Shown here piece after piece: positions 1,659-35,309 of a DNA stretch of 40,164 nucleotides. The DNA lies in IMG/VR virus record IMGVR_UViG_3300011116_000886, positions 1 through 40,164 of that record. The stretch is one strand, 5' to 3'. Both the position numbers and the translations under genes were made by a program. How positions within the stretch are numbered: position 1 is the first letter of the stretch; every line of letters starts with the position of its first letter. This stretch comes from a virus. The notes below the pieces were generated by a model. It worked only from the letters and a program-made list of their open reading frames with translations. It was not told the DNA's origin and ran no database searches.

Positions 1659-4600
1659 CGGTGGGCAGTATTCTCAACAGCCGGATATCGGCGCGGGTGG
1701 GCGTGAGTCAGGCCCGCACCCTGGCGCATGCCGACGCAATAGCGGACGGCATTGACGCCAAGGTAGTGCGACTATGGAAGCGCGCCCTTCGCCTGATTGC
1801 GTTGAAGCCGTTACCGGTAGACGTTCGCACCCAGCTGGGCGCAATCCTGCGAGAGATCCAAACGCTCACCATCAAGGGACTGGACAAGGGACTCCGGCAG
1901 ATTGTGGCGCAGGCCCACACCGCGGCACGGGAAGAAGTCTTGGCGGAGGCGCCGCGGGCAGTCATCGCCACCGCTCTAACCTTGGCGGCGCCGGCAAGGC
2001 CTGACCTCACCGAAGCAAGGCGCCTTAATCCGGAGCAGCGAGCGCAAGTCGAGGCGCAACTATTCCCCGCTCTTGACCACGACGAAACTACCGCAATCAT
2101 CACCCGCCCCACCGCCGGCACAACGTGGCAAGCCCGGATTGCAGCCCAGAGCGGACTGGCACCGCCGGAACAGCTTGCCAACATTGTGATTCAAGGCATT
2201 AGCCAAGGGCAGACTATTCAAGCCATGGCGCGGACCATGCTTCCGGCGGTGCAAGGCGTGAGGACATCGGCGCGACGGGTGGCACGAACCGAGGGAATGC
2301 GGGTGGCGCATGAGGCGCGGATGGATTGCTACGCGGGCCTCGGTGACCTAGTAGCAGGCTACCAGATTCATTCAACCATGGACTGGCGGGTAAGACCCCA
2401 CCACGCGGCGAGGAACGGCACGGTTTATTATGTGCGACCCAAGCCCGGGCAGCAATCAACGGCGCATATGCCAAGGCCACCGCTTGAAGAGGACGGCACC
2501 GTCGCCCACAATTGCCGGTGCTACCTTACGCCTGTTTTGGATGTGGACCCAGACATCGAATCGAACCCCGCGGCCCGGGCCTTGTTTGTCGACAACGATC
2601 ATAAGCTAGTTCAAGACCCCAACGTTTATTCGGATTGGTTCGCCAATGCTTCGGATCAAGAGCGCCGATGGGCGGTAGGCGCCCGGCGCTTGTCGGCAAT
2701 CACGGCAGGCCTTCCAGCCGGGCAGGCGCCGACGTGGGCCCACTTCATCGACCCCACCACCGGACAGCTTCTCCAATTGGAGCGCCTGACAGCCGAAACT
2801 CCGGCACGGCGTGAAGCCCGGATGGCACGGGTGGCGGAAGTGCTGGCGGAACGGGAGCGACTGGCCCGGCAGGTACAGCGCTTCGGGTACCTCACCGCGG
2901 AAGACGGCGGCGAACCTTTACCGGTGGCAGACCTCACCCCGCCGGCGCCTCACCCGTACACAGCGCCGGAGAGCCCAACGCCGGCAACGCCGGAGCCCTT
3001 GCCGCTACCGGCGCCGGTGGAGCAGGACAGGATTGACGCCGAGCAAGCGAAGTTCAGCCGGGAAGCGGGCAAGGGCGGCGCCTTTCAGGGCGAGGCAGTC
3101 AAAGCCGATCCCCTGCAACAAGTGCCGATTTATGGGCAGCCGATTAAGTTTTCATTCAAGCTAGAAGGCCCCACCGGCGCAACGATATCGCATGAAGTTT
3201 ACCGCCCCGTGTTTGGGCCTGGCGGTAAATTGGCCGGCAACAACCTAGAGACCATCAAGGGCGTTTGGCAGCAACTGGCAGCCATCGACAAGTTCACGCC
3301 GAGGGACCTGTTTGCTGAGCCCAAGACAACCCTAATCGCATCCCCAGACGGCACCCGGGTTGTGCTGGCAACGCCGGCGGAAGCGGCGCAAGCCATGGGA
3401 TTGAAACCAGCCAAGGTAAAGGAATACGAACAGATAGCCGCGGCAACGTGGCGTATTCAGGTAGGCAAGGAAGTTCAGGCGCTCTTGCAGCAGCAAGCCG
3501 ACCAAGCCGAGGACATTTGGCGCCAGACTCGGGAGCTTGAAGGCCCGGCGCCAACACGCTACCCCGAAGGCGATGAAGGGAATAACCGGGCGTGGGTTGT
3601 TGATGGAATCATCTTCCGCGTGTCCGATGAATCCGAGGACCCCAAGCTAACCCGAGGGATCAGAACAGCCGCATTGAATTTATGGCGTGACAACCAAGCC
3701 GAGGTTTTGCGGCGTGCGGCAGGCCTTCCCGCGGACCATAGGACCATTCGCAAGGAAGTCCGCGGTGTGGCGGATCAGGTGGAGAGCCTTGAAAAGAAAC
3801 TAAAGCGCCAAGCAGAGAAGTTCCGCGGCGCCCTTGATGTGATGACGCCGGCAAGCCCGCAGGTAAGCGCGCCGGCGCCACCACCTCCGGAAGTAAACGT
3901 GGTGCGAGGTGAAGCCGAGCCAATGCCGGACGGCGAAGACGACATAGCGCTAGACAGGTACGGCGAAATTGTGCTCATGGCGCAAGCTGCATTCGGCAAG
4001 GGCGTTAAGAATCTAAAACTGTTCAATGGGCTGAGCGAACTCAGCGCCGAACAATTGGCCAAGGTAGCGCTGCACGTAGGAATTGATTTTGCAGCGCTTC
4101 CGGATTCGGGGCTAGGCACGGCGAAGCGCCGAGATGCCCTATACGCTGCAATCATTAAACGGCAATCAGTAGACAAGATCATCGACGTGAACGCTATAGC
4201 GGCAGGCGTGGACCCCGCGGCGCTGCGAGCGGCAGCGGAACAAGGGTGGAATTACGAACTAGAAAAATACCGCGCCGAAGTCGAGGCAGTAAAGGAATTT
4301 AAGAGCCAGTTTTCGGCTTACGAAATCAGCAAGGGATCAAAGCCGAAGGAAGAAAAAAACGCCTTGGCGCAAGCCGACAAAGCGGCTAAGGCAAAAAAAA
4401 CAGGCGCCACCAAGGGCGCAAAGATACGACAGCTACCTTTGCCATCACGGAAGAGCCCGGCATGGAACGATTACGCCAGGTTTCCGCATTGGGATTTAAT
4501 TCTCCCAAGCTTGCAGCGTGAATTCGAGTGGTCAGCGCTTCTATTCGGCGACAGGAACGCGGAGATAGCCGCGGCAGGGGAAAACGAAGCCTCAGGCGAT

Positions 4601-7336
4601 CCAAACCAGATCCTATGGGATATCCTAATGCGCCACCAAGCCGGTGGCATTGAAAGGCCTGACAAGGAACGATTCTACGCAGACCAAGCCTTTCAGTTGC
4701 AGGGAGACCCAGACTTTGCGTTTGATCCTGAACGCCCCGTGGTCCCTGTTTCAACCGAGCCATTCAGTTGGGACGATGACACCCCGGCACCGACAGAACC
4801 ACCGATGCAACCGGCGGAAGAACCGGAGCGGGTTTGGGACGATGAGAAAGGCGAATGGGTAACGGCGCCGGCAGCAGTGGCAACGCCGGACCCCGACCCG
4901 TGGGACGATGACCCATTCGCTCGCGGTGCGGTGGCGCTACCCCTGGCGGCGGAGCAACCGGAACCGGACGAAGAGCGCCGGTGGGAAGACGAGGAATCAG
5001 ACGCCAATTGGGAGCCAGCCGGGGCAAGCCGTGGCGGCGACCCTTGGGACTTCCCAACCGAAACCGCGGCGGCGGAACCCGCGGAAGATGAGCGCCAATG
5101 GGATGAAGAAGAGGAAGGCGACGCCTACGGGTACAATCCCAAGCCACAGGAAACCGTTCAGCCGGAGCCAGCGCCGGAACCCGAGCCAGTACCGGAGCCG
5201 AAGCCGAAAAAGCTTCCGAAATATATTCCCGCGGGCCGGCTAAAATCCGATGCGCGGGTAGTATTCCCAACATCAATCAAAGGCAACACCGGCGCCGAGC
5301 TGGTGAGTTACGAATGGGCCTACCACATTGAGGACGTTCAGACAGCCGACGACGTCGTGGCAAAAAAAGTAAGCAATTGGGATCGCGCCGACGTTAGCGA
5401 TGAAACTGGCAGGCTAATCGTTCATAAGTTTGACGTGAAAGCCCCCGATGGAACAGTGAAAACGGTGAGCCTAGAAACCGCGGCGCGCCTACTCGGGTAC
5501 ACTCCCGGAGAAGTTCAAGACATTGCCAACATTGCCACTACCGCCAAGACATATGCAAAAATGCAGATGGCAATCAGCGTGCTTGATGCGGCAATCAAAG
5601 AAATAGATGAGATCAAGGCGGAAGTGGATGCGATGGATCCACCGCCGGTTATCGAGGTGGGCAGAACAAGCCCCACAACCAGAAGATGGATGATAGGCAA
5701 CGTTGAAATGAGGGAACGGTTTGGCATTATGGCGGGAGACCACCCGTATGAAATCGGCGAACCAATACCGGCGGAACTTGTCAAACGCGCGCAAGGCTTT
5801 TGGCGAGACGATCAACTCACGCGCAAAAAAAAGGAAGCAGGATACGAAGCTTATGACCAATTCGATTATCGCCGCAGCGAATTAGAGAGGCGAGCCAAGA
5901 AGCTAAAGCTTAAGCTGGACCTGGCAATCAAGAAGGCAGGCGAGAAGAAACGACTAGAAGAGGCAGTCAGATTGGAGCGCCGAGCGCTTCGGGCAGGTAT
6001 CACGCTAGGAGAAGCTTTTGGCGCAGTACCTCACCGGTGTTTATACTTGAACCCCATGAGAAGACCAATTCACGAATCCGTCTTGAGTGGCCGCGGCATC
6101 CGAGTTAATCGGGAAGCCGGCACCATTGCCAACGTGAAGATCCTTGGGCTTGTCAGCGAGAATGGCAGGCAGTATCTGCCCGCGGCAATTCAAGCCGCAA
6201 AGAAATTGTACGAAGGCGTACACGTTAACATCGATCACCCGAAGGACAGTCCCGACCAACAGCGCAGCGCCTACGACAGATTCGGCAAGCTCACTGCCAT
6301 CCGGTGGGTCGAAGGCGAAGGCCTATACGGGGACCTGGTGTACCTGAAAACCCACCCCATGGCGGAACGAATCTGCGAAGCGGCGGAACGCATGCCAGAC
6401 GCATTCGGCATGTCTCACAACGCTCAGGGCGAAGGCGAAGAGAATAAGGACGGGATATTCGTTGTAAGTAAAATCGTGGAGGTACGGCACGTGGACCTTG
6501 TAGCGGACCCAGCAACGACTCAGAGCCTGAGCGAGAGTAAAACCAACAAAACAAAAATAGAAAAAGGCTTAGGTTGGCTTGAATCAATATCGCCAAAAAC
6601 AAAACTTATGGAGCGACAAGTCTTCAATAAAGTGAATGACTGGATGGGAGCAATTAGAAAAAAATACCCAGACAGACATATTGAACGCAATAATGACAGA
6701 TCAGGCCACTGGACGGCATACGATCATCTTGTTGGCGGTAAAATTGTTGGTGTGTTTGATCAAGATAAAAAAGTAAAAGATCCATATTGGGATTGGAAAC
6801 AAGATACTGGTGTTGGAACAATTGAAGCCACAGGAGCAACCAAGATGAACACAGTCGAAATCGTATCGCAATTGAAGGACTTGCTTGACCAGCTCGCCAT
6901 GAGTCTTGGCGGCGAAGAAGAGGTCCCTTCGGAAGAATCCTACGACGGCGAGGAAGAAAAGCCGGCGATGGAAGCCGAAGATGAAAAAACAGCCGTTGAT
7001 GATGAAACAATTGAAGCGGACGGCGAAGGCTCCGAAATGGAAGAACCGCCCGCAGAAAAGAAAAAGCCTTCCATGGAAGCGCGCCAAACCAAAGCCATCC
7101 GTAACGCTCGCAAGCTCTGCGAAGCGGTGGGCCTGAAAGCTTCCCGCGACTTGCTCCAAGACCTCGCCAGCATGCCAAGGGAAACAGCAGCCCGCCAGGT
7201 GCAGCGCCTTGCACTGGCGCAGAAGGCCCGGGCGCCCCGTAGTGGTAGCTATATGACGGAAGGACGCACCAACGGCGCCACCGACAACACCGGCATTCCA
7301 ACCGGGCCCGCATTGTTTACCTGGCTCGCCAACTAA
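1646..7336 (+). CDS. Giant MuF / prohead protease / scaffold fusion protein
   Basis: Uninterrupted 1896-aa reading frame joining several head-morphogenesis functions. Residues about 30-300 are MuF/SPP1 gp7-like: a RTEG-x6-A-R-M helix near 214, a W-R-V-R-P-x-H segment, and the closing H288-N-C290-R-C292. Residues 300-1490 are unrecognised: two diverged copies of a 220-240-residue module (about 497-722 and 1191-1424), Lys/Ala-rich and Pro-rich linkers, and a run of Trp-plus-acid motifs (WDDD, WEDE, WDEE) near 1040-1160. Residues 1496-1625 resemble a capsid maturation protease, with H1531 (in NIDHP) and S1590 (in FGMSH) as likely catalytic residues. The C-terminus is acidic and scaffold-like. 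GTG at 1646 overlaps the portal end; GTG at 1661 is an alternative. Usually these are separate genes. Confidence 0.85.
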   Translation: MAGVAVGSILNSRISARVGVSQARTLAHADAIADGIDAKVVRLWKRALRLIALKPLPVDVRTQLGAILREIQTLTIKGLDKGLRQIVAQAHTAAREEVLAEAPRAVIATALTLAAPARPDLTEARRLNPEQRAQVEAQLFPALDHDETTAIITRPTAGTTWQARIAAQSGLAPPEQLANIVIQGISQGQTIQAMARTMLPAVQGVRTSARRVARTEGMRVAHEARMDCYAGLGDLVAGYQIHSTMDWRVRPHHAARNGTVYYVRPKPGQQSTAHMPRPPLEEDGTVAHNCRCYLTPVLDVDPDIESNPAARALFVDNDHKLVQDPNVYSDWFANASDQERRWAVGARRLSAITAGLPAGQAPTWAHFIDPTTGQLLQLERLTAETPARREARMARVAEVLAERERLARQVQRFGYLTAEDGGEPLPVADLTPPAPHPYTAPESPTPATPEPLPLPAPVEQDRIDAEQAKFSREAGKGGAFQGEAVKADPLQQVPIYGQPIKFSFKLEGPTGATISHEVYRPVFGPGGKLAGNNLETIKGVWQQLAAIDKFTPRDLFAEPKTTLIASPDGTRVVLATPAEAAQAMGLKPAKVKEYEQIAAATWRIQVGKEVQALLQQQADQAEDIWRQTRELEGPAPTRYPEGDEGNNRAWVVDGIIFRVSDESEDPKLTRGIRTAALNLWRDNQAEVLRRAAGLPADHRTIRKEVRGVADQVESLEKKLKRQAEKFRGALDVMTPASPQVSAPAPPPPEVNVVRGEAEPMPDGEDDIALDRYGEIVLMAQAAFGKGVKNLKLFNGLSELSAEQLAKVALHVGIDFAALPDSGLGTAKRRDALYAAIIKRQSVDKIIDVNAIAAGVDPAALRAAAEQGWNYELEKYRAEVEAVKEFKSQFSAYEISKGSKPKEEKNALAQADKAAKAKKTGATKGAKIRQLPLPSRKSPAWNDYARFPHWDLILPSLQREFEWSALLFGDRNAEIAAAGENEASGDPNQILWDILMRHQAGGIERPDKERFYADQAFQLQGDPDFAFDPERPVVPVSTEPFSWDDDTPAPTEPPMQPAEEPERVWDDEKGEWVTAPAAVATPDPDPWDDDPFARGAVALPLAAEQPEPDEERRWEDEESDANWEPAGASRGGDPWDFPTETAAAEPAEDERQWDEEEEGDAYGYNPKPQETVQPEPAPEPEPVPEPKPKKLPKYIPAGRLKSDARVVFPTSIKGNTGAELVSYEWAYHIEDVQTADDVVAKKVSNWDRADVSDETGRLIVHKFDVKAPDGTVKTVSLETAARLLGYTPGEVQDIANIATTAKTYAKMQMAISVLDAAIKEIDEIKAEVDAMDPPPVIEVGRTSPTTRRWMIGNVEMRERFGIMAGDHPYEIGEPIPAELVKRAQGFWRDDQLTRKKKEAGYEAYDQFDYRRSELERRAKKLKLKLDLAIKKAGEKKRLEEAVRLERRALRAGITLGEAFGAVPHRCLYLNPMRRPIHESVLSGRGIRVNREAGTIANVKILGLVSENGRQYLPAAIQAAKKLYEGVHVNIDHPKDSPDQQRSAYDRFGKLTAIRWVEGEGLYGDLVYLKTHPMAERICEAAERMPDAFGMSHNAQGEGEENKDGIFVVSKIVEVRHVDLVADPATTQSLSESKTNKTKIEKGLGWLESISPKTKLMERQVFNKVNDWMGAIRKKYPDRHIERNNDRSGHWTAYDHLVGGKIVGVFDQDKKVKDPYWDWKQDTGVGTIEATGATKMNTVEIVSQLKDLLDQLAMSLGGEEEVPSEESYDGEEEKPAMEAEDEKTAVDDETIEADGEGSEMEEPPAEKKKPSMEARQTKAIRNARKLCEAVGLKASRDLLQDLASMPRETAARQVQRLALAQKARAPRSGSYMTEGRTNGATDNTGIPTGPALFTWLAN
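3134..3811 (+). repeat. Internal protein module, copy 1 of the giant fusion
   Basis: Encodes residues about 497-722. It shares an ordered set of features with 5216-5917: a -PDGT- turn followed by an Ala-rich helix with the pattern TPAEAAQAMGLKPAKV, then a W-V/M-I/V-x-G/N core, a helix containing LWRDNQ, and a Lys/Arg-rich coiled coil ending KKLKRQ. The resemblance is at protein level only; the DNA is not alike. Function unknown. Confidence 0.5.
5216..5917 (+). repeat. Internal protein module, copy 2 of the giant fusion
   Basis: Encodes residues about 1191-1424 and matches copy 1 in order: -PDGT- turn, SLETAARLLGYTPGEV helix, RRWMIGNVEM core, FWRDDQ helix, coiled coil ending KKLKLKL. The two copies flank the Lys-rich and Trp/acid-rich linkers. 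The simplest reading is an ancient internal duplication. It could be a structural arm or an ejected internal protein, but nothing in the sequence settles that. Confidence 0.5.
6539..6817 (+). other. AT-rich insert between protease and scaffold parts
   Basis: About 280 bases of visibly AT-rich sequence inside the GC-rich giant gene, using AAA, AAT, ATT and GAT codons rare nearby. It starts right after the usual end of the protease domain (ADPATT..LSES) and stops just before the scaffold-like segment. The reading frame is kept. It encodes about 93 residues, rich in Lys, Asp and Trp, that I do not recognise. The composition and clean position suggest a later insertion. Confidence 0.6.
6845..7336 (+). 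CDS. Possible nested scaffold protein, internal in-frame start
   Basis: An ATG at residue 1734 of the giant fusion is preceded by AGGAG at 6832-6836 with an 8-nt spacer, a good ribosome-binding site in the same frame. The product would be 163 aa: a short helix, an acidic Glu/Asp stretch, then a basic helical C-terminus, which fits a scaffold. Lambda Nu3 inside gene C and other phages use the same nested arrangement. The alternative is that scaffold is made only by proteolysis of the fusion. Inference only. Confidence 0.35.
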   Translation: MNTVEIVSQLKDLLDQLAMSLGGEEEVPSEESYDGEEEKPAMEAEDEKTAVDDETIEADGEGSEMEEPPAEKKKPSMEARQTKAIRNARKLCEAVGLKASRDLLQDLASMPRETAARQVQRLALAQKARAPRSGSYMTEGRTNGATDNTGIPTGPALFTWLAN

Positions 7337-26842: not shown

Positions 26843-26875
26843 CGGATCGGGTGTTGCTGGGTAGAGGGTAATGTG

Positions 26876-27127
26876 ATGGCATGGTTTGTTTTAGCGGCGC
26901 TCGCATTGGCGCCATCGCAAAGCGCGCAAGCCTCGGCGCAAGCCTCGGCACAGGCGGGACGGATGGCGCACAGGGGCGGCAGTTACCGGTTTGAAGGCGT
27001 GGGGTTCTCAGCGGCAAGCGCTGGGCAGGCTATCCGGAATTGTTGCTATTATGGGCAGCGGGTGGCGGTAGAAATCGGCGTAGCGCGTGGGCGGAACGGT
27101 TGGTACGCATGCGTGAGGTACCGATGA
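26876..27127 (+). CDS. Small secreted protein
   Basis: 83-aa protein starting at ATG 26876 (GAGGG site 7 bases upstream; GTG 26873 is possible). A signal peptide covers residues 1-20 (MAWFVLAALALAPSQSAQA), followed by short Gln-Ala-Ser-Ala repeats. The mature part contains SYRFEGVGFSA, IRNCCYYGQR and GWYACVRY, a pattern I associate with small planctomycete secreted proteins. Role unknown; envelope modification or superinfection exclusion is possible. Confidence 0.55.
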   Translation: MAWFVLAALALAPSQSAQASAQASAQAGRMAHRGGSYRFEGVGFSAASAGQAIRNCCYYGQRVAVEIGVARGRNGWYACVRYR

Positions 27128-28332: not shown

Positions 28333-28731
28333 TTAAGACTTTGACCCCTCATCTTTACCCAAACAAACACCGGGTTCTGTTTGGCTACCGCAAACAACCC
28401 ACCAAGATTGAATGGCGGCGCAAACAGCCGCGGTAAGCGTGGTACCGTTTGCCTTAGCAACCCTTTGGAGCGCTTCCTTCAGCGCCGGCGGTACCCATAC
28501 GGTGAGCTGGGTTCCGCGGCGCCGGCGGTGGGTGGTATCTTGCGTGGGTCTGGGATTCTTCCGGGCGCGGACAATCCCCTCGGCGGTGCCAAGGCACCAT
28601 ACGTAGCGCTTTTCAATGAACAGGGGCGGAACGATAGTACCGCGGCGCACCAATCCCCAAACCGATTGGGTGGTTATGCCAAGCATCTGCGCAAGCTCAC
28701 GAGCGTTGACGACTGGAACCAAGTCTTCCAT
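28333..28731 (-). CDS. Transcriptional regulator, HTH plus ribbon-helix-helix
   Basis: 132-aa protein, the only minus-strand gene I support. Residues 8-35 form a helix-turn-helix of the MerR/excisionase type (VNARELAQMLGITTQSVWGLV). Residues 74-112 look like a ribbon-helix-helix unit (QLTVWVPPALKEALQRVAK, then a second helix). GGAG lies 8 bases before its start. The promoter overlaps that of the rightward genes, so it probably acts as the switch protein of the control region, repressing one or both promoters. Candidate binding sites are the GTGTTGCGAC elements and the CAAACAA boxes. The HTH resembles that of the sigma-like factor at 34560. Confidence 0.7.
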   Translation of the reverse strand: MEDLVPVVNARELAQMLGITTQSVWGLVRRGTIVPPLFIEKRYVWCLGTAEGIVRARKNPRPTQDTTHRRRRGTQLTVWVPPALKEALQRVAKANGTTLTAAVCAAIQSWWVVCGSQTEPGVCLGKDEGSKS

Positions 28732-28759: not shown

Positions 28760-28787
28760 ATTGTACCAGAGGTTGACAGCGTCGCAA
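28760..28787 (-). promoter_or_regulatory. Leftward promoter for the HTH/RHH regulator
   Basis: On the minus strand TTGCGA (28787-28782) is followed after 16 bases by TACAAT (28765-28760), a good sigma-70-type -10. Predicted transcription starts about 20 bases before the regulator ATG. It overlaps the -35 of the rightward promoter, so the two are probably exclusive. Confidence 0.5.
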
Positions 28788-28801
28788 CACCACACTAAAT
28801 T
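28773..28801 (+). promoter_or_regulatory. Rightward promoter 1
   Basis: TTGACA (28773-28778), 17-base spacer, TAAATT (28796-28801). The spacer contains GTCGCAACAC, the reverse complement of the GTGTTGCGAC element found at the same place in promoters 2 and 3. The -10 is followed after 7 bases by leader hairpin 1. Confidence 0.65.
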
Positions 28802-28808
28802 ATAGTCA

Positions 28809-28829
28809 TGGCGCCGAAGGACGGAGCCA
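28809..28829 (+). promoter_or_regulatory. 5'-leader hairpin 1 with ANGGA loop
   Basis: TGGCGCC (28809-28815) pairs with GGAGCCA (28823-28829) except for one central G-A mismatch; the 7-base loop GAAGGAC holds the CsrA-type motif AAGGA. It begins about where transcription should start and ends exactly 25 bases before the ATG at 28855. Two further ACGGA motifs at 28841 and 28848 surround the ribosome-binding site. Confidence 0.75.
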
Positions 28830-28854
28830 AGACGACGCAAACGGAGAACGGAAT

Positions 28855-29061
28855 ATGAACGGCCAAATCAATCTCAAGTTTCTTGCTTCAATCGACAGCA
28901 ACACGCGATACATTATAATTGATGAAATATCAAAGAACTACAAAATAACATCAAAAGAAGCGCTTGAAGAAATCACTCACGATGAATCAGAAAACTTGCT
29001 AGATTATTTAACAGGTTCAACACGAATTGCTGTTAGCCTACTAATGAAGCGTAGGAAATAA
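28855..29061 (+). CDS. Small early protein, unknown
   Basis: 68-aa helical, charged protein in an AT-rich stretch. The pattern YKITSKEALEEI..ESENLLDYLTG resembles short conserved phage proteins without a known job. It has its own promoter, leader hairpin 1 and terminator, so it is a single-gene unit. Likely an early host-takeover or regulatory protein (inference from position). Confidence 0.6.
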   Translation: MNGQINLKFLASIDSNTRYIIIDEISKNYKITSKEALEEITHDESENLLDYLTGSTRIAVSLLMKRRK

Positions 29062-29071
29062 AAAAAATCTC

Positions 29072-29097
29072 GGGCCCGGAAAAATTCTTCCGGGCCC
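29072..29097 (+). terminator. Terminator hairpin between cassettes 1 and 2
   Basis: Perfect 10-bp stem GGGCCCGGAA / TTCCGGGCCC with loop AAATTC, preceded by an A-run (29061-29067) and followed by TATTGACA, the next promoter. The same loop and inner stem recur at 29524-29549 with a changed but still paired outer stem. Confidence 0.7.
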
Positions 29098-29099
29098 TA

Positions 29100-29127
29100 T
29101 TGACAGTGTTGCGACAGAGTGTAAGAT
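29100..29127 (+). promoter_or_regulatory. Rightward promoter 2
   Basis: TTGACA (29100-29105), 16-base spacer beginning with GTGTTGCGAC (29106-29115), TAAGAT (29122-29127). The leader hairpin follows after 7 bases. Confidence 0.7.
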
Positions 29128-29134
29128 AAGAGCA

Positions 29135-29155
29135 TGACAGCGAAGGACGCCGTCA
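29135..29155 (+). promoter_or_regulatory. 5'-leader hairpin 2 with ANGGA loop
   Basis: TGACAGC (29135-29141) pairs with GCCGTCA (29149-29155) with one central A-C mismatch; loop GAAGGAC is identical to hairpin 1 although the stem differs. It ends exactly 25 bases before the ATG at 29181. ACGGA occurs at 29167 and 29173 around the ribosome-binding site. Confidence 0.75.
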
Positions 29156-29180
29156 GAAACGCCAACACGGAGACGGACTC

Positions 29181-29510
29181 ATGAGCCAGACTTACTTTAA
29201 CTTTGTCAACACCGACTACAACGGAAACGTTGACCACCGCTCAGATGACCAGCAGTACCTTAAGTTCACCGGGTTTATTGCTGACAGCGTCGAATCCGAC
29301 GAAATGCCCCAAGCAGACAACCAAGTTTATGTCTGCATGACAGAAGCCCAAGAAGTGGGCGACGATGACGAAACCTTGATTTGGTGTGTGGGGTTGATGA
29401 TTGACGGGGAGTGGATCGGCAAAGTTTACGACTGCCGTTCGGAGCGCAGCGCCCAGCGCTTGGCGGAAAAAATGGCGAAGAGCCGCGGGCTTAGCATTGA
29501 ATCGTTGTAA
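29181..29510 (+). CDS. Small acidic early protein, unknown
   Basis: 109-aa acidic protein (rich in Asp and Glu) with a beta-rich middle (QVYVCMTEAQEVG, ETLIWCVGLMIDGEWIG) and a C-terminal helix (RSAQRLAEKMAKSRGL). Expressed from its own promoter with leader hairpin 2. Acidic early phage proteins often bind host proteins or mimic DNA, but nothing specific can be claimed. No family recognised. Confidence 0.6.
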   Translation: MSQTYFNFVNTDYNGNVDHRSDDQQYLKFTGFIADSVESDEMPQADNQVYVCMTEAQEVGDDDETLIWCVGLMIDGEWIGKVYDCRSERSAQRLAEKMAKSRGLSIESL

Positions 29511-29523
29511 GTAAACTTTTTGG

Positions 29524-29549
29524 GGTTCCGGAAAAATTCTTCCGGAACC
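29524..29549 (+). terminator. Terminator hairpin between cassettes 2 and 3
   Basis: Perfect 10-bp stem GGTTCCGGAA / TTCCGGAACC with loop AAATTC, matching the 29072 hairpin in architecture with compensating base changes. The next promoter begins two bases later. Confidence 0.7.
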
Positions 29550-29551
29550 TC

Positions 29552-29579
29552 TTGACAGTGTTGCGACGTTGATTACAAT
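29552..29579 (+). promoter_or_regulatory. Rightward promoter 3
   Basis: TTGACA (29552-29557), 16-base spacer beginning with GTGTTGCGAC (29558-29567), TACAAT (29574-29579). It is the closest of the three to consensus; the hairpin follows after 7 bases. Confidence 0.72.
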
Positions 29580-29586
29580 ACCACCA

Positions 29587-29607
29587 TGGAACCAAGGGAT
29601 GGTTTCA
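29587..29607 (+). promoter_or_regulatory. 5'-leader hairpin 3 with ANGGA loop
   Basis: TGGAACC (29587-29593) pairs with GGTTTCA (29601-29607) with one G-U pair; the loop AAGGGAT holds AGGGA, again ANGGA. It ends exactly 25 bases before the ATG at 29633. Further ANGGA motifs lie at 29608 and 29626. Confidence 0.72.
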
Positions 29608-29632
29608 AGGGAACGCAAACGGGAGACGGAAG

Positions 29633-29893
29633 ATGAAGTGCAACAAGGAAACGGGATGCGTCAAGATTACTGGCCAATATGCTGGTCTCAGCCGTGGCAG
29701 AATTTGCGCCAAGCACATTGAAACCGGCGTGTGGGCTCAAAGGGATGGCGAATGTGTGATCTTGGGCCGCGGTGGCAAGTGGATGATTAGCCAAACAGAC
29801 GGCTTCAATCGCAAGGAAACGGTTTACGCCACCCTTAACGCCGACGGCACAATCAAAGGCCTTGGATCAAAGATGTGGACCATCGACGAATGA
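29633..29893 (+). CDS. Small basic early protein, unknown
   Basis: 86-aa basic protein with four cysteines near the N-terminus (C3, C9, C25, C42; CNKETGC and RICAKH), then beta-rich sequence (WMISQTDGFNRKETVYATL). It might be a small zinc-binding domain, but the spacing matches no ribbon I can name. Driven by promoter 3 and leader hairpin 3. Its mRNA runs into the hammerhead ribozyme, which starts three bases after the stop. Confidence 0.6.
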   Translation: MKCNKETGCVKITGQYAGLSRGRICAKHIETGVWAQRDGECVILGRGGKWMISQTDGFNRKETVYATLNADGTIKGLGSKMWTIDE

Positions 29894-29895
29894 TA

Positions 29896-29946
29896 ACCCA
29901 CTGATGAGCCCCGGGGCGCCGGGGCGAAACCCTTCGGGGTCTGGGT
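29896..29946 (+). ncRNA. Type I hammerhead self-cleaving ribozyme
   Basis: All core elements are present in order. Stem I strand ACCCA (29896-29900); CUGAUGA (29901-29907); stem II GCCCCGG / CCGGGGC with loop GGCG (29908-29925); GAAA (29926-29929); stem III CCC-UUCG-GGG (29930-29939); U940 pairing with A929; cleavage nucleotide C29941; stem I partner UGGGU (29942-29946). Every core position fits the hammerhead consensus, and all three stems pair perfectly. Predicted cleavage is between 29941 and 29942, separating the 29633 message from that of 29981. Loop-loop contacts that speed cleavage cannot be judged by eye. Confidence 0.92.
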
Positions 29947-29980
29947 CGCACAGGATAAGGAATAGCACGGAGAGCGGAAA

Positions 29981-30175
29981 ATGGCACGTATCGCATTTCA
30001 AATCGGTTATAGCGTATTGGCAAGCGGTTACACCAACACCAAAACCATGTACGGGAGCGAAACCATTGAGCGGGCCATTGAGGCCTTTTATGAAAACTGG
30101 GAGAGCGACGGTTCCTCACGTGAGGAGCTGGGCGATGTCTGGGACATGAATCAATCAGTAATCATTGAAGACTGA
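29981..30175 (+). CDS. Small protein downstream of the ribozyme, unknown
   Basis: 64-aa acidic protein with an N-terminal strand (RIAFQIGYSVLASGYTNTK) and a helix rich in Glu (ETIERAIEAFYENWE). It has no own promoter; its message would begin at the ribozyme cut 39 bases upstream. AAGGA (29957) and ACGGA (29967) lie in that short leader, so it could join the same RNA-level control. Function unknown. Confidence 0.55.
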   Translation: MARIAFQIGYSVLASGYTNTKTMYGSETIERAIEAFYENWESDGSSREELGDVWDMNQSVIIED

Positions 30176-30180
30176 TCAAA

Positions 30181-30281
30181 CCGGCTTTCCCGCCACCCCC
30201 ACCGACAGCCAGGTGGGGAAACCGGGCAGGCCTGTTTTTTCGACGGGGTGCGTGGCCCCGGGATTCTTTGTACAGGCCTGC
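30181..30281 (+). ncRNA. Structured RNA region of unknown class
   Basis: Non-coding stretch with nested pairing. A first hairpin, CCCCACC (30197-30203) with GGTGGGG (30212-30218), can be extended outward by CCGG/CCGG and TTTCCC/GGGAAA in an alternative fold. A second element pairs GCAGGCCTGT (30226-30235) with ACAGGCCTGC (30272-30281), encloses an internal loop with T-runs, and an inner CGGGG (30244-30248) / CCCCG (30256-30260) stem. TTTTTT at 30235-30240 could also end transcription. I cannot match it to a known riboswitch or ribozyme. Confidence 0.5.
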
Positions 30282-30300
30282 TCACTAGGAGATGGAAGCA

Positions 30301-30492
30301 ATGGAAGACGAATTTAGAATGCGCTTATTGGCGCTATCGTATGCGGCAACGCAATTGGTTGGCGATCTTGCCAATCTTGATGAAGACCAGCTTTACAAGC
30401 GTTTGTGGAAGGTTGGCGAATTAGCCAACGGCATTACCCATTCGGGACTGGAATGCGTGAAAGCACGGAGGCCCCACCGTGAAAGCGCCTGA
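30301..30492 (+). CDS. Small helical protein, unknown
   Basis: 63 aa from ATG 30301, chosen because TAGGAGAT lies 7 bases upstream; ATG 30292 is too close to that site. Mostly helical (MRLLALSYAATQLVGDLANL, QLYKRLWKVGELANG) with a basic end. Overlaps the next gene by 14 bases. No family recognised; it starts the replication operon. Confidence 0.5.
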   Translation: MEDEFRMRLLALSYAATQLVGDLANLDEDQLYKRLWKVGELANGITHSGLECVKARRPHRESA

Positions 30493-30739
30493 CCTAAAAC
30501 CCGAGGAAATACAGCCGGCGGTTGAAGCCTTGGCGGAAGCCGAAGCGAAGGCCAAGGTGGAAGCCGAGGCAGCCAAACCCGTAGTATACCGCCCGTGGGT
30601 GCCGAAGGGGCGCCCACCAATCCGGTGGGGCCTTGCAATCCTGGCGCTTGTTGCTGGGTGCCGGCACGCGGAGACTGTTACCATCACAATCAATCAGGGC
30701 CCGGTAGCGGCCCACATAACCATGGAGGTAACGCGATGA
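30479..30739 (+). CDS. Small lipoprotein-like membrane protein
   Basis: 86 aa from GTG 30479. Residues 1-40 are Ala/Glu/Lys-rich helix; then RWGLAILALVAGC gives a membrane segment ending in a lipobox (LVAGC), followed by a beta stretch (TVTITINQGPVAAHITMEV). A lipobox 60 residues in is odd. GTG 30599 would make it a normal 46-aa lipoprotein with a basic n-region, but no clear ribosome-binding site precedes it. The gene overlaps the CsrA-like gene by 4 bases (ATGA). Confidence 0.5.
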   Translation: MKAPDLKPEEIQPAVEALAEAEAKAKVEAEAAKPVVYRPWVPKGRPPIRWGLAILALVAGCRHAETVTITINQGPVAAHITMEVTR

Positions 30740-30939
30740 CGTACGGGCCAGCGTTTGGCGGGCTCTACTTAAACCGGAAGGTAGGTGAGGAGCTTGTAAT
30801 TGGTGAGGGTGAAAACGAGTGTGTGATATGCGTGGAGGCGGCGGCGGGTGGCAGGGTGTCACTTCGGATTACCGCCGGGCCCAACGTAAGGATTGACAGG
30901 TCGGAAATTAGAAGGGAGAGGAATCAAGATGGCAAGTGA
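30736..30939 (+). CDS. csrA-like: CsrA-like RNA-binding translational regulator
   Basis: 67 aa from ATG 30736 (GGAGG site, ATGA overlap). It aligns along its length with CsrA/RsmA: L10-Y-L12-x-R14-K-V-G-E-E-L-V-I-G opening, a V-x-L-R-I-x-A-G-P middle strand, and V-R-I-D-R55-S-E-I in place of the V-x-V-H-R-E-E-I end. The counterparts of the RNA-contacting Leu-4 and Arg-44 are kept. CsrA dimers bind ANGGA in hairpin loops and at ribosome-binding sites, usually blocking translation. Three such hairpins lie 1.1-1.9 kb upstream. Its own leader has ATGGA (30722-30726) over the ribosome-binding site, so self-control is possible. Two extra residues lie between strands 2 and 3. Confidence 0.85.
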   Translation: MTYGPAFGGLYLNRKVGEELVIGEGENECVICVEAAAGGRVSLRITAGPNVRIDRSEIRRERNQDGK

Positions 30940-31669
30940 ATTGATGCCGATGGAAAGCACCGCAGAGCGATGGGAAACCGCGGTAGTGGACGGCAACCTT
31001 GAAAGGTTACAGCCCGCGGAGCGCCTCGAGCTGGTGCGCAGGATCTGCGACGCCACCGGGCTTACTCTGGAAAGCCAACCCTTTCAGTATTTGCGACTGA
31101 GTGGGAAGCTTGTCCTATATGCCCGGAGGGATGCAACCGACCAGTTGCGCCGAGTACACCGGGTAAGCGTGTCAATCGTAAGCCGTGAGACAGCCGACGG
31201 CGTGCACGTCGTGACGGCCCGCGCCACAATGCCGGACGGCAGATCAGACGAAAGCACCGGCGCAGTACCAACCAAGGGCCTTCAAGGCGACGCGCTAGCC
31301 AACAGCCTGATGAAAGCCGAAACCAAGGCCAAGCGTCGCGTGACCTTGTCAATCTGCGGCCTTGGAATGCTTGACGAAAGCGAAGTTGAAAGCATACCGG
31401 GCGCGGCGGTGGAGCCCTTGGCGCTACCTGCACCAACTCAGGCAGCGCCGGCAGCACCCGCGGAACGGAAAGCCGGCGTAAAGGCCTTGGCAGAAATGGC
31501 GCGGCTTGGAAGAGAAGCCGGCGTGGATGCAAGATTCTGGTTGGGTGTGAAGGAACACTACGGGGTAAAGCAATCCGCGGACCTTACCGCGGCGCAGGCG
31601 GCAAACGTTATTGCTGACCTGCAAATGATGATCGAGGAACGGGAAGCAATCAAGGGAGAAGGAAAATGA
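30929..31669 (+). CDS. Probable ssDNA-annealing / recombination protein
   Basis: 246 aa from ATG 30929, overlapping the CsrA-like gene by 11 bases. Residues 45-150 contain PFQYLRLSGKLVLYARRDATD, then ALANSLMKAETKAKRRVTLS and ICGLGMLDESEVESIP, a layout I know from phage RecT/ERF-type proteins placed next to SSB genes. The C-terminal 80 residues are an Ala/Pro linker and a helical domain. It probably anneals single strands in phage recombination or replication. The family name is uncertain, but the neighbourhood (SSB-like, primase-helicase, RusA) supports it. Confidence 0.5.
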   Translation: MASELMPMESTAERWETAVVDGNLERLQPAERLELVRRICDATGLTLESQPFQYLRLSGKLVLYARRDATDQLRRVHRVSVSIVSRETADGVHVVTARATMPDGRSDESTGAVPTKGLQGDALANSLMKAETKAKRRVTLSICGLGMLDESEVESIPGAAVEPLALPAPTQAAPAAPAERKAGVKALAEMARLGREAGVDARFWLGVKEHYGVKQSADLTAAQAANVIADLQMMIEEREAIKGEGK

Positions 31670-32148
31670 GCCTAGACCAGTTTGACCATGCGTTCAACCC
31701 AGCGAACAACAACAGGCCCGCGGGCCTGGAAGCGCTGCAAGATGGCCCCTACCAATTGGAAATTGCACACGCCGAACTTGTCCAACTGGACAAAACCGGA
31801 GAGACTATTCTGCGGTGGCGGTACCGGGTGACAGCCGGACCATTCACCGGCACCGTGTGCGAAGCGGCAACGTTTTTCAGAACGCCATTATCTGCAAACC
31901 TACTAGGGGCGGATCTTGCAATCCTAGGCTACCCGGTGCATGAGTGGACGGTAGCGGCAGGCAAGCCATTCAGCCGGATGCTTCGGGAGACGGTGCCGAG
32001 CCTTATCGGGAAGGCCTTCCGGTGCAACAAAACCTCGGGCGTGAGTCAGGCAGGCAAAACCTGGCACAACATCCGAATCGTGAGCGTGGCGCCTTCCATG
32101 CCTCAGCCGGTGGAACCGTCATTCGACAAGGACGATATGCCCTTCTAG
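31666..32148 (+). CDS. SSB-like / DUF669-type single-strand DNA-binding protein
   Basis: 160-aa protein in an ATGA overlap. A central beta-rich fold (ILRWRYRVTAGPFTG, CEAATFF) resembles phage DUF669-like proteins, and the last residues DKDDMPF are the acidic-hydrophobic tail typical of SSBs, which recruits partner enzymes. The position between an annealing protein and a primase-helicase fits. Not a classical OB-fold SSB by sequence. Confidence 0.6.
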   Translation: MSLDQFDHAFNPANNNRPAGLEALQDGPYQLEIAHAELVQLDKTGETILRWRYRVTAGPFTGTVCEAATFFRTPLSANLLGADLAILGYPVHEWTVAAGKPFSRMLRETVPSLIGKAFRCNKTSGVSQAGKTWHNIRIVSVAPSMPQPVEPSFDKDDMPF

Positions 32149-32167
32149 TGTAGATTGACAGCATCAC

Positions 32168-32193
32168 GCGCCGGCGTCTTCGGGCGCCGGCGC
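32168..32193 (+). terminator. Strong UUCG hairpin upstream of the primase gene
   Basis: GCGCCGGCGTC pairs with GGCGCCGGCGC (11 bp, one G-U) around a TTCG tetraloop. No T-run follows; it lies 20 bases before the ATG at 32213. It may end transcription partially, protect RNA ends, or slow translation. Confidence 0.55.
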
Positions 32194-32212
32194 CCACTAT
32201 GGAGAGGATGAT

Positions 32213-34297
32213 ATGACGGAGCAGGAACGGGTATTGAATTGCCTTGAGTATTTCACCGAGCCGGGCGACATAATCGAGGTAAGGGCATTCCTTCCCGCCG
32301 GCGCGGTATGCGGGTGGTTTCGACATGAGGACCTTGGCGCGGCAGCTAGGGCCGTGGCGGATCTTGAGCGAAGCCAAGCAACGGGAATTTACTTTACGCC
32401 CAACCCAGTGGCGCCGGCAGCAGCAAGGCGCCTTGGGCAGATTGGGCCGGCGACAGTCTGCACGAGGGATGCCGATATCCTGCGGCGCCGTTGGTTGCTC
32501 ATTGACATTGACCCCACAAGGCCCACCGGCAGCAATTCCAGCGAGGCGGAACGCGCTGCGGCCTGGCAGGTGGCAAGCCATGTGCAAGCGATAATGGGCG
32601 CCGCGGGCCTAGTGGCCCCAATCATTGGCAGCAGTGGCAACGGCTGGCACCTTTGCTATCCAATCGACTGGCCCAACGATGACGACAGCCGGACCCGACA
32701 CAAGATAATCCTGGCGGAGCTGGCGAAGCGGTGCGATACATCCGAAGCGGCGGTGGATTGTGTCACGTACAACGCGGCGCGGATCTGGAAATTGTACGGC
32801 ACCCGAGCGCGGAAAGGCCCCAACACCGGCGACAGGCCTCAGCGTATTGCGTTTGTTGCTTCGGCTCCCGCGGCGGCGCTTGACCCGGCAACCCGGGAGA
32901 CAAACAACCGAGCCATTGACGTGGGCCTTGTCGGCGCTTGGGCCCGGCAGTCCGCGGCGCTGCAAAGTCTGGAGCGCCAGCGGACAGAGCCGGACACCGT
33001 AGCGCGGGCCCGGGCCTACCTGGCGAAGATACCGGGCGCGGTAAGCGGCAGCGGTGGCCATGGGCAAACCTATCATGCGGCAATGGAATTGGTGGAAGGC
33101 TTCGGTTTGGATCAGGAAACAGCGCTAGCCTTGCTCCGGGAATGGAACCAGACATGCGTTCCACCATGGACAGAGCCGGAGCTAGCGCACAAGATCAACA
33201 GCGCGGCGAAGAACGCCAAGGATACGGGCCGGCTATTGAACGCCGGCAGGCAGACACCCGCGGCAAGGCCTGCACCAAGGCCCGCGGCGCGGTACACCGG
33301 GCCGGAATCGGTACCGGAATCAATCTGCGAGGATGTACCGGAGGAGGACCCAGACGCAACCGCGGCGGACCTTATCGCCCTCCAGGCTACGATAACGTGG
33401 ACTTGGCCGGGGTGGATTCAACGTGGGACGCTAACCTGCCTCGCTTCTGATCCGGGCATAGGTAAAACGCGCCTATGTGCCGATATCGCAAAACGCCTAT
33501 GGTTGGGCCTACCGTGGCCGGACGGCACGCCGGCAACCCACCCGGTGGGCTCCCGCGTCATGTGGATTGCAGCCGATAGCCAATGGGCCGAGCTTGGGAC
33601 CATACCGGGGGAGTTTGGGTTTGCGGCGGAAGCTATTGTTCTAAACGGCAACCGAAGCAACCCATATGCCGGCACCAACCTAGACAGCATCGAGGACCTT
33701 GCAGCGCTTGAACGGCGCATCCGGAGAGTTCAGCCGGTGGTGGTGTTTATTGATACGTGCGGCAACGCAACCGACAGGAACCAAGGGCGCACCGAGGAAG
33801 CCAAGGCCTTTTTCAAACCCTTAGCGGAGATCGCTACCCGGTGCAACGTAAGCATCGTGTTGGTGACCCACCTAAACCGCGGCGGGCAGGTTTTAGGCAA
33901 CCGGATTGTTGGAGCGGTACGGCAGGTAATCAACCTTGACGCGCCCGATGCAACAGCCGAGAATCGGCGCCGGTTACAAGTCTCAAAAACAAACAGCAAG
34001 AAACCGCCGGCGCTTGGCGTGACCATGGACAGCACGGGCAACGAATACGACATGGACCCGCCCCGAGGCGCCGACGATGTTGGCGCCGAGCCGGGCAGGC
34101 CCGCGGCGAACCTGGGAGGCGACATGGATTGGTTACGGGAGGCGCTGGCAATGGGCCCGAAGAGAGTCTCCCATATCCGGAATGATGCTCAGGCTTCTGG
34201 CATCGGTTCTAGTCGCCTTTACAAAGCCAAGGACGGCGCCCAGGTGGAACAATTCGAGCGCGACGGAAAGCAGTGGTGGAGGCTATCCGATGATTGA
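32213..34297 (+). CDS. Primase-helicase fusion (AEP-like primase plus RepA-like ATPase)
   Basis: 694-aa replication protein. The N-terminal half looks like an archaeo-eukaryotic-type primase: D98-x-D100 in LLIDIDP, and H146 in SGNGWHL with the usual spacing for metal and nucleotide binding. A helical linker domain (about 270-345) follows. From 385 on there is a RecA-fold helicase: Walker A ASDPGIGKT (411-419), Walker B VVVFID near 510, and a sensor-like THLNRGG. The last 65 residues may be a winged helix. It likely both primes and unwinds phage DNA. The start has a GGAGAGGA site. Confidence 0.85.
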   Translation: MTEQERVLNCLEYFTEPGDIIEVRAFLPAGAVCGWFRHEDLGAAARAVADLERSQATGIYFTPNPVAPAAARRLGQIGPATVCTRDADILRRRWLLIDIDPTRPTGSNSSEAERAAAWQVASHVQAIMGAAGLVAPIIGSSGNGWHLCYPIDWPNDDDSRTRHKIILAELAKRCDTSEAAVDCVTYNAARIWKLYGTRARKGPNTGDRPQRIAFVASAPAAALDPATRETNNRAIDVGLVGAWARQSAALQSLERQRTEPDTVARARAYLAKIPGAVSGSGGHGQTYHAAMELVEGFGLDQETALALLREWNQTCVPPWTEPELAHKINSAAKNAKDTGRLLNAGRQTPAARPAPRPAARYTGPESVPESICEDVPEEDPDATAADLIALQATITWTWPGWIQRGTLTCLASDPGIGKTRLCADIAKRLWLGLPWPDGTPATHPVGSRVMWIAADSQWAELGTIPGEFGFAAEAIVLNGNRSNPYAGTNLDSIEDLAALERRIRRVQPVVVFIDTCGNATDRNQGRTEEAKAFFKPLAEIATRCNVSIVLVTHLNRGGQVLGNRIVGAVRQVINLDAPDATAENRRRLQVSKTNSKKPPALGVTMDSTGNEYDMDPPRGADDVGAEPGRPAANLGGDMDWLREALAMGPKRVSHIRNDAQASGIGSSRLYKAKDGAQVEQFERDGKQWWRLSDD

Positions 34298-34559: not shown

Positions 34560-35309
34560 GTGGAAGAAAGAATCATGGCAAGAGACCTGGCGGTAATGTG
34601 CGGAATGCACGTATCAAACGTGACCCACTTGCTAAACCGCGGCATCATATCAGCACCCACCGGCATGATACGAAACCGCCGGCATCGGTATTGGACACCC
34701 ACCGCGGCGGCGGCAAACGTGGTGGCGGTTGAAGCCTACCGGAAATCAAAGATCCTACCCGCGGCGTCTGCGGAAGTAAGGGCCTTCTATGACAACAACC
34801 TCCCGCTCGTTTATAAGGCGGCGCGGCGCTGGGTGCCTACCGGCATTGACGTTGAAGATTGGCAACAGGAATGCGCGTTGAATGTGCTCAGGAACCTGCA
34901 CAGTTTCGACGCAAGCAAGGGCGCCTTCAGTACCTGGTGCTATCGGGTTTGCTGGTCGATAGCGGTAGAGTTTGTTCGATTGGAACGCACCCGGAAGGCC
35001 TTGGCGGCGCAATCGCTGCACGCCCGCGGCGCCGATGGTGAAAGCTACACCATCGACATCGAGGACCACCGGCAGCCGGACCCAGCAAGGCCCGAAGCCT
35101 ATTTGGTAGACGATGTGCGGCAGGGGCTGCGAAGCCTTCCAGCCCGGGCCCAAGATGTAATGATGAGCCGGATTGACGAGGAACCGCAGCGTTCTATTGG
35201 GCGCCGAATCGGCATCACTAGGCAACGGGTCGACCAGATATGGAAACAGGGTAGGCGGAAACTTGCTAATGTGATGCAAGCCATGGGGTATGATGGGGGC
35301 GAAGAATGA
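34560..35309 (+). CDS. Sigma-70-like factor with an extra N-terminal HTH
   Basis: 249 aa from GTG 34560 (ATG 34575 is an alternative). Residues 5-32 are a helix-turn-helix (ARDLAVMCGMHVSNVTHLL) similar to that of the 28333 regulator. Residues 77-141 match sigma region 2 (NNLPLVYKAARRWV, DVEDWQQEC, GAFSTWCYRVCWSIAVEFVR), which binds the -10 element. Residues 188-240 match region 4 (LRSLPARAQDVMMSR, ITRQRVDQIWKQGRRKL), which binds the -35. It would redirect host RNA polymerase, most simply to late genes. Fusion to a MerR-like HTH is unusual. Confidence 0.78.
   Translation: MEERIMARDLAVMCGMHVSNVTHLLNRGIISAPTGMIRNRRHRYWTPTAAAANVVAVEAYRKSKILPAASAEVRAFYDNNLPLVYKAARRWVPTGIDVEDWQQECALNVLRNLHSFDASKGAFSTWCYRVCWSIAVEFVRLERTRKALAAQSLHARGADGESYTIDIEDHRQPDPARPEAYLVDDVRQGLRSLPARAQDVMMSRIDEEPQRSIGRRIGITRQRVDQIWKQGRRKLANVMQAMGYDGGEE

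Follow-up and report, generated by a model that had tools for sequence, protein, structure and literature searches.

A putative CsrA target in the repeated 5' leaders of a phage early operon

The locus described here raises the question of whether a CsrA-like protein encoded by a phage acts on the phage's own early messages. It lies on one IMG/VR phage contig of 40,164 bases (IMGVR_UViG_3300011116_000886, referred to over its full length as the window), which belongs to a tailed phage according to its portal, terminase and tape-measure genes. Phage csrA genes have been catalogued since 2020 (PMC7366521) and their targets are not known; the first test of such a gene, by knockdown in PTXU04, led to smaller plaques only (PMC11879866). 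An early operon marked for its own product would provide a cheap, concrete way to ask if phage CsrA works for the timing of phage genes or of host genes. In the window, three early genes upstream of a csrA-like gene share a common module: a TTGACA promoter is followed by a hairpin at the predicted start of the RNA, and an element of the ACGGAGA(A)CGGA type precedes the ATG. It is proposed, with a probability of roughly 0.55, that in this lineage the 5'-end hairpin has turned into a CsrA site, which phage CsrA would bind to repress the early operon by bridging of the kind described for glgC. The three modules comprise the following features:

28773–28801, plus strand: promoter of leader 1, TTGACA, 17 nucleotides (nt), TAAATT; the site is also found in relatives
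28809–28829, plus strand: hairpin of leader 1, TGGCGCCG-AAGGA-CGGAGCCA, one G.A mismatch, loop at 28817–28821; model R1, 68 bits
28841–28852, plus strand: ribosome-binding element of leader 1, ACGGAGAACGGA, with two ANGGA; serves the gene at 28855–29061
28855–29061, plus strand: gene after leader 1, 68 amino acids, no family match; other genes take its place in most relatives
29100–29127, plus strand: promoter of leader 2, TTGACA, 16 nt, TAAGAT
29135–29155, plus strand: hairpin of leader 2, TGACAGCG-AAGGA-CGCCGTCA, one A.C mismatch, loop at 29143–29147
29167–29177, plus strand: ribosome-binding element of leader 2, ACGGAGACGGA; serves the gene at 29181–29510
29181–29510, plus strand: gene after leader 2, 109 amino acids, function unknown; present in near relatives
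29552–29579, plus strand: promoter of leader 3, TTGACA, 16 nt, TACAAT
29587–29607, plus strand: hairpin of leader 3, TGGAACCA-AGGGA-TGGTTTCA, fully paired, loop at 29595–29599; energy z-score -2.2
29619–29630, plus strand: ribosome-binding element of leader 3, ACGGGAGACGGA; serves the gene at 29633–29893
29633–29893, plus strand: gene after leader 3, 86 amino acids, function unknown; other genes take its place in relatives

An earlier note, made from the sequence of the window, had proposed the three hairpins (at 28809, 29135 and 29587), and all of them were found, each with ANGGA in its loop as claimed (AAGGA, AAGGA and AGGGA). Their dimensions had to be revised: instead of a 7-base-pair stem with a 7-nt loop, they are better read as 8 base pairs closed by the five-base loop A(A/G)GGA, because the loop-adjacent pair is likewise preserved, with compensatory changes (G-C in 13, A-U in two and G-U in one of 16 leaders). 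The mismatches of stems 1 and 2 both fall at the fifth pair. According to promoter prediction, the stem begins 1–3 nt after the transcription start, and one base after it in the window leaders. Leaders 1 and 2 exhibit no energy excess over shuffled sequences, and the case therefore rests on comparison. ANGGA pentaloop hairpins number five on the plus strand genome-wide against a shuffled mean of 1.6, a weak excess, and those with at least three G-C pairs are confined to the three leaders when both strands of the window are considered. No match was obtained in Rfam at the gathering score.

Scans of IMG/VR identified seven further near-relative contigs with the module or csrA (L002–L006, L126 and L120), the last of which is a fragment that ends after the first leader and its gene, so that the csrA locus lies outside the record. 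Three leaders from each of the six csrA-bearing near relatives, the three of the window and the one of L120 make up a set of 22. Among the 16 distinct leaders, stem covariation reaches 0.428 as opposed to 0.195 in shuffled sets, a value attained by 0 of 500 shuffles, and controls slid along the leader stay at or below 0.09. The claim that the stems differ yet stay paired thus holds with regard to covariation, and full pairing applies to stem 3 only. The predicted +1 position, the recurrence in seven related contigs and the covariation together place the hairpins beyond chance.

Within leader classes, the loop bases A.GGA show no change in 12 site-classes, in contrast to two changes in three site-classes at the N position, where only AAGGA and AGGGA occur in all 22 leaders; the rate of change per site amounts to 0.21–0.29 in the stems and 0.83 in the linker. 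Frozen loop bases next to a varying N and varying stems are the pattern that would be expected if something reads the loop ANGGA. A second ANGGA at the ribosome-binding site, also part of the original proposal, is found in 19 of the 22 leaders, including all three from the window, 20–28 nt from the loop GGA. This spacing lies within the 10–63 nt which a CsrA dimer can bridge, with an optimum above 18 nt (PMC7652899), and would suit a single dimer. According to Duss et al. (PMC4005645, citing Lapouge 2013), AGGGA and AAGGA pentaloops are high-affinity RsmE/CsrA targets, N being required to be a purine.

Searched with the leader covariance model, the window and the other loci covered yielded no strong further copy, the next best hit (21 bits) corresponding to the shared ribosome-binding element only. 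Close relatives have different genes behind leaders 1 and 3 but retain the promoter and leader, and L120 contains a recombinant leader in which hairpin 1 is joined to a type 2 linker. The module therefore behaves as a cassette. These swappable cassettes (28773–28855, 29100–29181 and 29552–29633, with the same sites in L002–L006, L126 and L120) are also a place to seek accessory or anti-defence genes.

The putative binder and the remainder of the operon follow downstream:

30736–30939, plus strand: csrA-like gene, 67 amino acids; PF02599, phrog_9500, alignments A2 and A8
29981–34297, plus strand: rest of the early operon, with genes at 29981, 30292, 30479, csrA, 30929 (recombination-like), 31666 and 32213 (primase/AAA)

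The csrA product scores 34.2 bits with PF02599 against a cut-off of 27, which places it in the family by profile, and it matches PHROG 9500, "CsrA-like regulator." In an alignment including distant phage homologues, its residues R14, R55 and E57 correspond to R6, R44 and E46 of E. coli CsrA and are invariant across the phage subfamily, so the notion of a CsrA homologue that keeps its RNA-contact residues is borne out; R7 and H43 of E. coli CsrA are replaced by K15 and D54. The predicted monomer has a mean local confidence (pLDDT) of 75 and a predicted template modelling score (pTM) of 0.51, and a fold search of the PDB gave no significant match. All six near relatives for which the record includes the locus carry the gene. 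Neither a tblastn search of named phages with the phage csrA nor an alignment search for further csrA phages returned a match or a new lineage, respectively. At 5057–5257, next to a helix-turn-helix (HTH) gene, L138 encodes a diverged CsrA-like protein in which the counterpart of R6 has been lost; this phage keeps hairpins without GGA.

ANGGA is not restricted to the three leaders. In the rest of the early operon it occurs at six of seven ribosome-binding sites, the marked genes including csrA itself, the recombination-like gene, the 31666 gene and the primase. With automatic gene calls and 25 nt upstream of each gene considered, the motif is found at 10 of 12 early genes as opposed to 2 of 38 others (p = 4e-7), and the difference persists once the three leader genes are removed (7/9 vs. 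2/38, p = 2e-5) or when ANGGA is counted among occurrences of GGA (15/20 early vs. 2/20 other, p = 7e-5). The enrichment is strongest in the window clade (p = 4e-7 to 0.004), milder in the more distant phage G081 (p = 0.02), and not significant in G080 (p = 0.08) or G086 (p = 0.7). The genes around csrA in named csrA phages likewise show no ANGGA enrichment (VvAW1 2/9, F116 1/11 and 219E41.1 0/14).

Wider relatives, recruited via primase homologues of 44–64% identity, place the module in a broader context. Among them, csrA exceeds the Pfam cut-off in G080, G081, G086, G092 and G094, lies just under it in G096, and is diverged in G082, G083 and G088–G091. G081 combines csrA with an AGGGA pentaloop at the predicted 5' end, and other pentaloops directly follow strong promoters in G083 (ACAUU, ACAAC and GUUUU), G088 (AAGAC) and G091 (ACAAA). 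In contigs further away, a first broad scan for leaders also picked up numerous chance hairpins; the distant hairpins were misaligned by MAFFT and were counted with the loop as anchor instead. Having been picked for pairing, these hairpins yield pair counts that cannot serve as independent evidence. At promoter-like sites, pentaloop leaders were more frequent in the clade (19 of 336) than in control phage DNA (9 of 751) or in shuffled clade DNA (0 of 230). Given the composition of the loops in the remaining lineages, the presence of ARGGA in two of seven lineages has a P of about 0.003, a value that is indicative only as it derives from ten loops.

Several observations weigh against a CsrA site. 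With an identity above 75%, the near relatives do not provide independent agreement, and the hairpin of window leader 2 is not the minimum-energy fold of its 67-nt leader. Three of the 22 leaders are without ANGGA at the ribosome-binding site, where the motif in any case overlaps an ordinary Shine-Dalgarno sequence. The csrA-bearing phages G080 (ACUGA twice) and G086 (AAGAA, AAGAA and AAAGU) possess a pentaloop hairpin without GGA at the predicted 5' end. The earlier note had itself named related phages that keep the hairpin without ANGGA as evidence against its idea, and the hairpin can consequently not be regarded as a CsrA device in general. Co-occurrence of hairpin and csrA, which the note had suggested looking for in relatives, is seen in the near relatives. 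The hairpin is a feature of the wider clade, across which the loops differ and the loop GGA is not tied to csrA. As the loop motif is not kept wherever hairpin and csrA co-occur, membership in the glgC type is suggested for the window lineage and G081 only. What was described as a self-contained RNA regulon thus appears tenable for the window lineage and probably for G081, and hairpin and csrA do not form one system in G080 and G086. The clade thereby offers a natural comparison, as the same 5' hairpin occurs with and without a GGA loop among phages that carry csrA.

These findings are consistent with a hairpin that is probably an older 5'-end element of the clade, serving as mRNA stabilizer or scaffold, to which control by CsrA was added later, perhaps independently in G081. 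In the window lineage, early genes would be read from the repeated module of strong promoter, 5' hairpin with ARGGA loop and one or two ANGGA at the ribosome-binding site, the transcript starting at or beside the A of the first ATG. Phage CsrA, as a product of the same operon, would bind the hairpin loop as a high-affinity anchor and bridge to the ANGGA of the ribosome-binding site 20–28 nt away, so that the three module genes would no longer be translated, and would also damp the remaining early operon, csrA included. From the sequence we infer the transcription start, the binding, repression over stabilization, and the phage rather than the host CsrA as binder. That the whole amounts to a phage-internal Csr regulon, in which phage CsrA times the shut-off of the early operon through a portable leader module built from the clade-wide hairpin and accepting newly acquired early genes, is advanced tentatively, at somewhat less than even odds.

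The proposed arrangement resembles the E. coli glgC leader, where a high-affinity loop GGA lies just upstream of a second GGA at the Shine-Dalgarno sequence at one-dimer spacing (PMC7652899). In the window, by contrast, the hairpin begins at the predicted start of the transcript, its stem is longer, its loop comprises five bases, and a copy stands ahead of each of three phage genes. The AGGGA and AAGGA loops are identical to those of RsmA/RsmE targets (Lapouge 2013, cited in PMC4005645), which were studied outside phages, unlike the repeated phage leader found here. Mobile csrA homologues of the same family are known from phages, plasmids and integrative and conjugative elements, including the RsmM phages (PMC7366521), PTXU04 gp28 (PMC11879866) and RsmQ (PMC9928087); in contrast to the marked early operon of the window, these reports concern host targets or fitness.

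The hairpins could instead be 5'-terminal stem-loops of the ompA type that shield early mRNAs from 5'-end-dependent decay, with ARGGA arising by drift or as an unspecific purine-rich loop and CsrA acting on host RNAs. Such stem-loops are known to stabilize mRNA (Emory 1992 and Bouvet 1992, listed in PMC3997798). They share with the window leaders a position few nucleotides from the (here predicted) 5' end and a free stem sequence, and differ from them in the constraint on the loop bases of the window lineage. The start 1–3 nt ahead of the stem, the unrelated loops on a pentaloop hairpin kept at the same place in wider relatives, and the abundance of such leaders in the clade relative to control or shuffled DNA would all follow from this explanation. 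It does not account for the invariance of four loop bases amid a varying N and varying stems, for the arrival of two lineages at ARGGA, or for the enrichment of ANGGA at early ribosome-binding sites, and is accordingly considered unlikely, if by no means negligible.

Other explanations retain a protein bound to the loop. If the leaders were targets of the host's CsrA, through which the phage would sense the state of its host and with which the phage copy would compete or which it would supplement, the anatomy of the target would be the same, and host manipulation has been proposed for a phage csrA (PMC11879866) and shown for the plasmid-borne RsmQ (PMC9928087). The position of csrA inside the marked operon, its joint inheritance with the leaders and the lack of marks on the early genes of known csrA phages nonetheless render this rather improbable. 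CsrA might also protect the message, as on flhDC, where its sites are likewise at the extreme 5' end (PMC7652899), and thereby raise early expression; ANGGA at ribosome-binding sites fits the exclusion of ribosomes better, making protection very unlikely. Finally, a constant five-base loop near the early transcript start recalls a boxB site for a phage antiterminator. The loops differ from lambdoid boxB as generally known, the hairpin is located at the predicted +2, and neither an N-like protein nor a boxA was identified, although no further test was aimed at them; this explanation is therefore given hardly any weight.

Two further features of the modules concern their transcription:

28781–28788, plus strand (also 29108–29115 and 29560–29567): GTYGCRAC palindrome in the -35/-10 spacer of all three promoters and in all relatives
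28333–28731, minus strand: divergent DNA-binding protein that may regulate transcription of the modules (HTH_17 and Arc-like matches, both sub-threshold)

GTYGCRAC is possibly the operator of a shared repressor, perhaps bound by the divergent HTH protein. The hairpin itself was rejected as a DNA operator palindrome because its stems hold G-U pairs and differ between copies. An upstream mini-open reading frame from the leader ATG, equal in length (16 codons) in the three window leaders, was likewise dismissed as a conserved peptide, since in relatives it is interrupted or runs into the gene. Long inverted repeats directly precede promoter 2 (29072–29097, GGGCCCGGAA...TTCCGGGCCC) and promoter 3 (about 29520–29550, GGTTCCGGAA...TTCCGGAACC); they have no T run on the plus strand, and the first reads as a minus-strand terminator.

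A hammerhead-like motif lies between the third module gene and the csrA operon, with counterparts elsewhere in the clade:

29896–29946, plus strand: type I hammerhead ribozyme motif with a perfect core by pattern
L134 958 and 1579; L138 1154; L154 762; L155 3055 and 3359; L158 722; L233 11024 and 11390; L248 15473: clade hammerhead motifs

In the window motif, the core elements CUGANGA, GAAA and UH and three stems are all present, and its score of 18.2 bits with Rfam HH9 lies below the cut-off of 52; the clade motifs adjoin early genes and are all under the Rfam cut-offs as well. The core pattern occurs 12 times in 1.1 Mb of clade DNA; control phage DNA (3.2 Mb) and shuffled sequence (2.7 Mb) contain none. 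Since the pattern demands pairing, it is this specificity and not the stem variation that constitutes independent evidence. The putative ribozyme recalls the hammerheads that flank genes in prophages (PMC3088659) in its location between early phage genes, and differs from them in its score below the Rfam cut-off. If active, it would cleave the leader 3 transcript upstream of the csrA operon.

With respect to the host, a search of genome_contigs with the primase and a conserved small protein found no relative of either. A small conserved protein (MAHRGGSY...NCCYYGQR) without a family match is encoded at 26873–27127 and at 4577–4846 of L138, and is common to distant phages of the clade. Elsewhere in the window, 34560–35309 encodes a sigma-70-like factor of the phage with Sigma70_r2 and r4 over the Pfam cut-offs, and 1646–7336 is an open reading frame of 1896 amino acids whose N-terminal part matches head morphogenesis/protease families, the remainder having no match.

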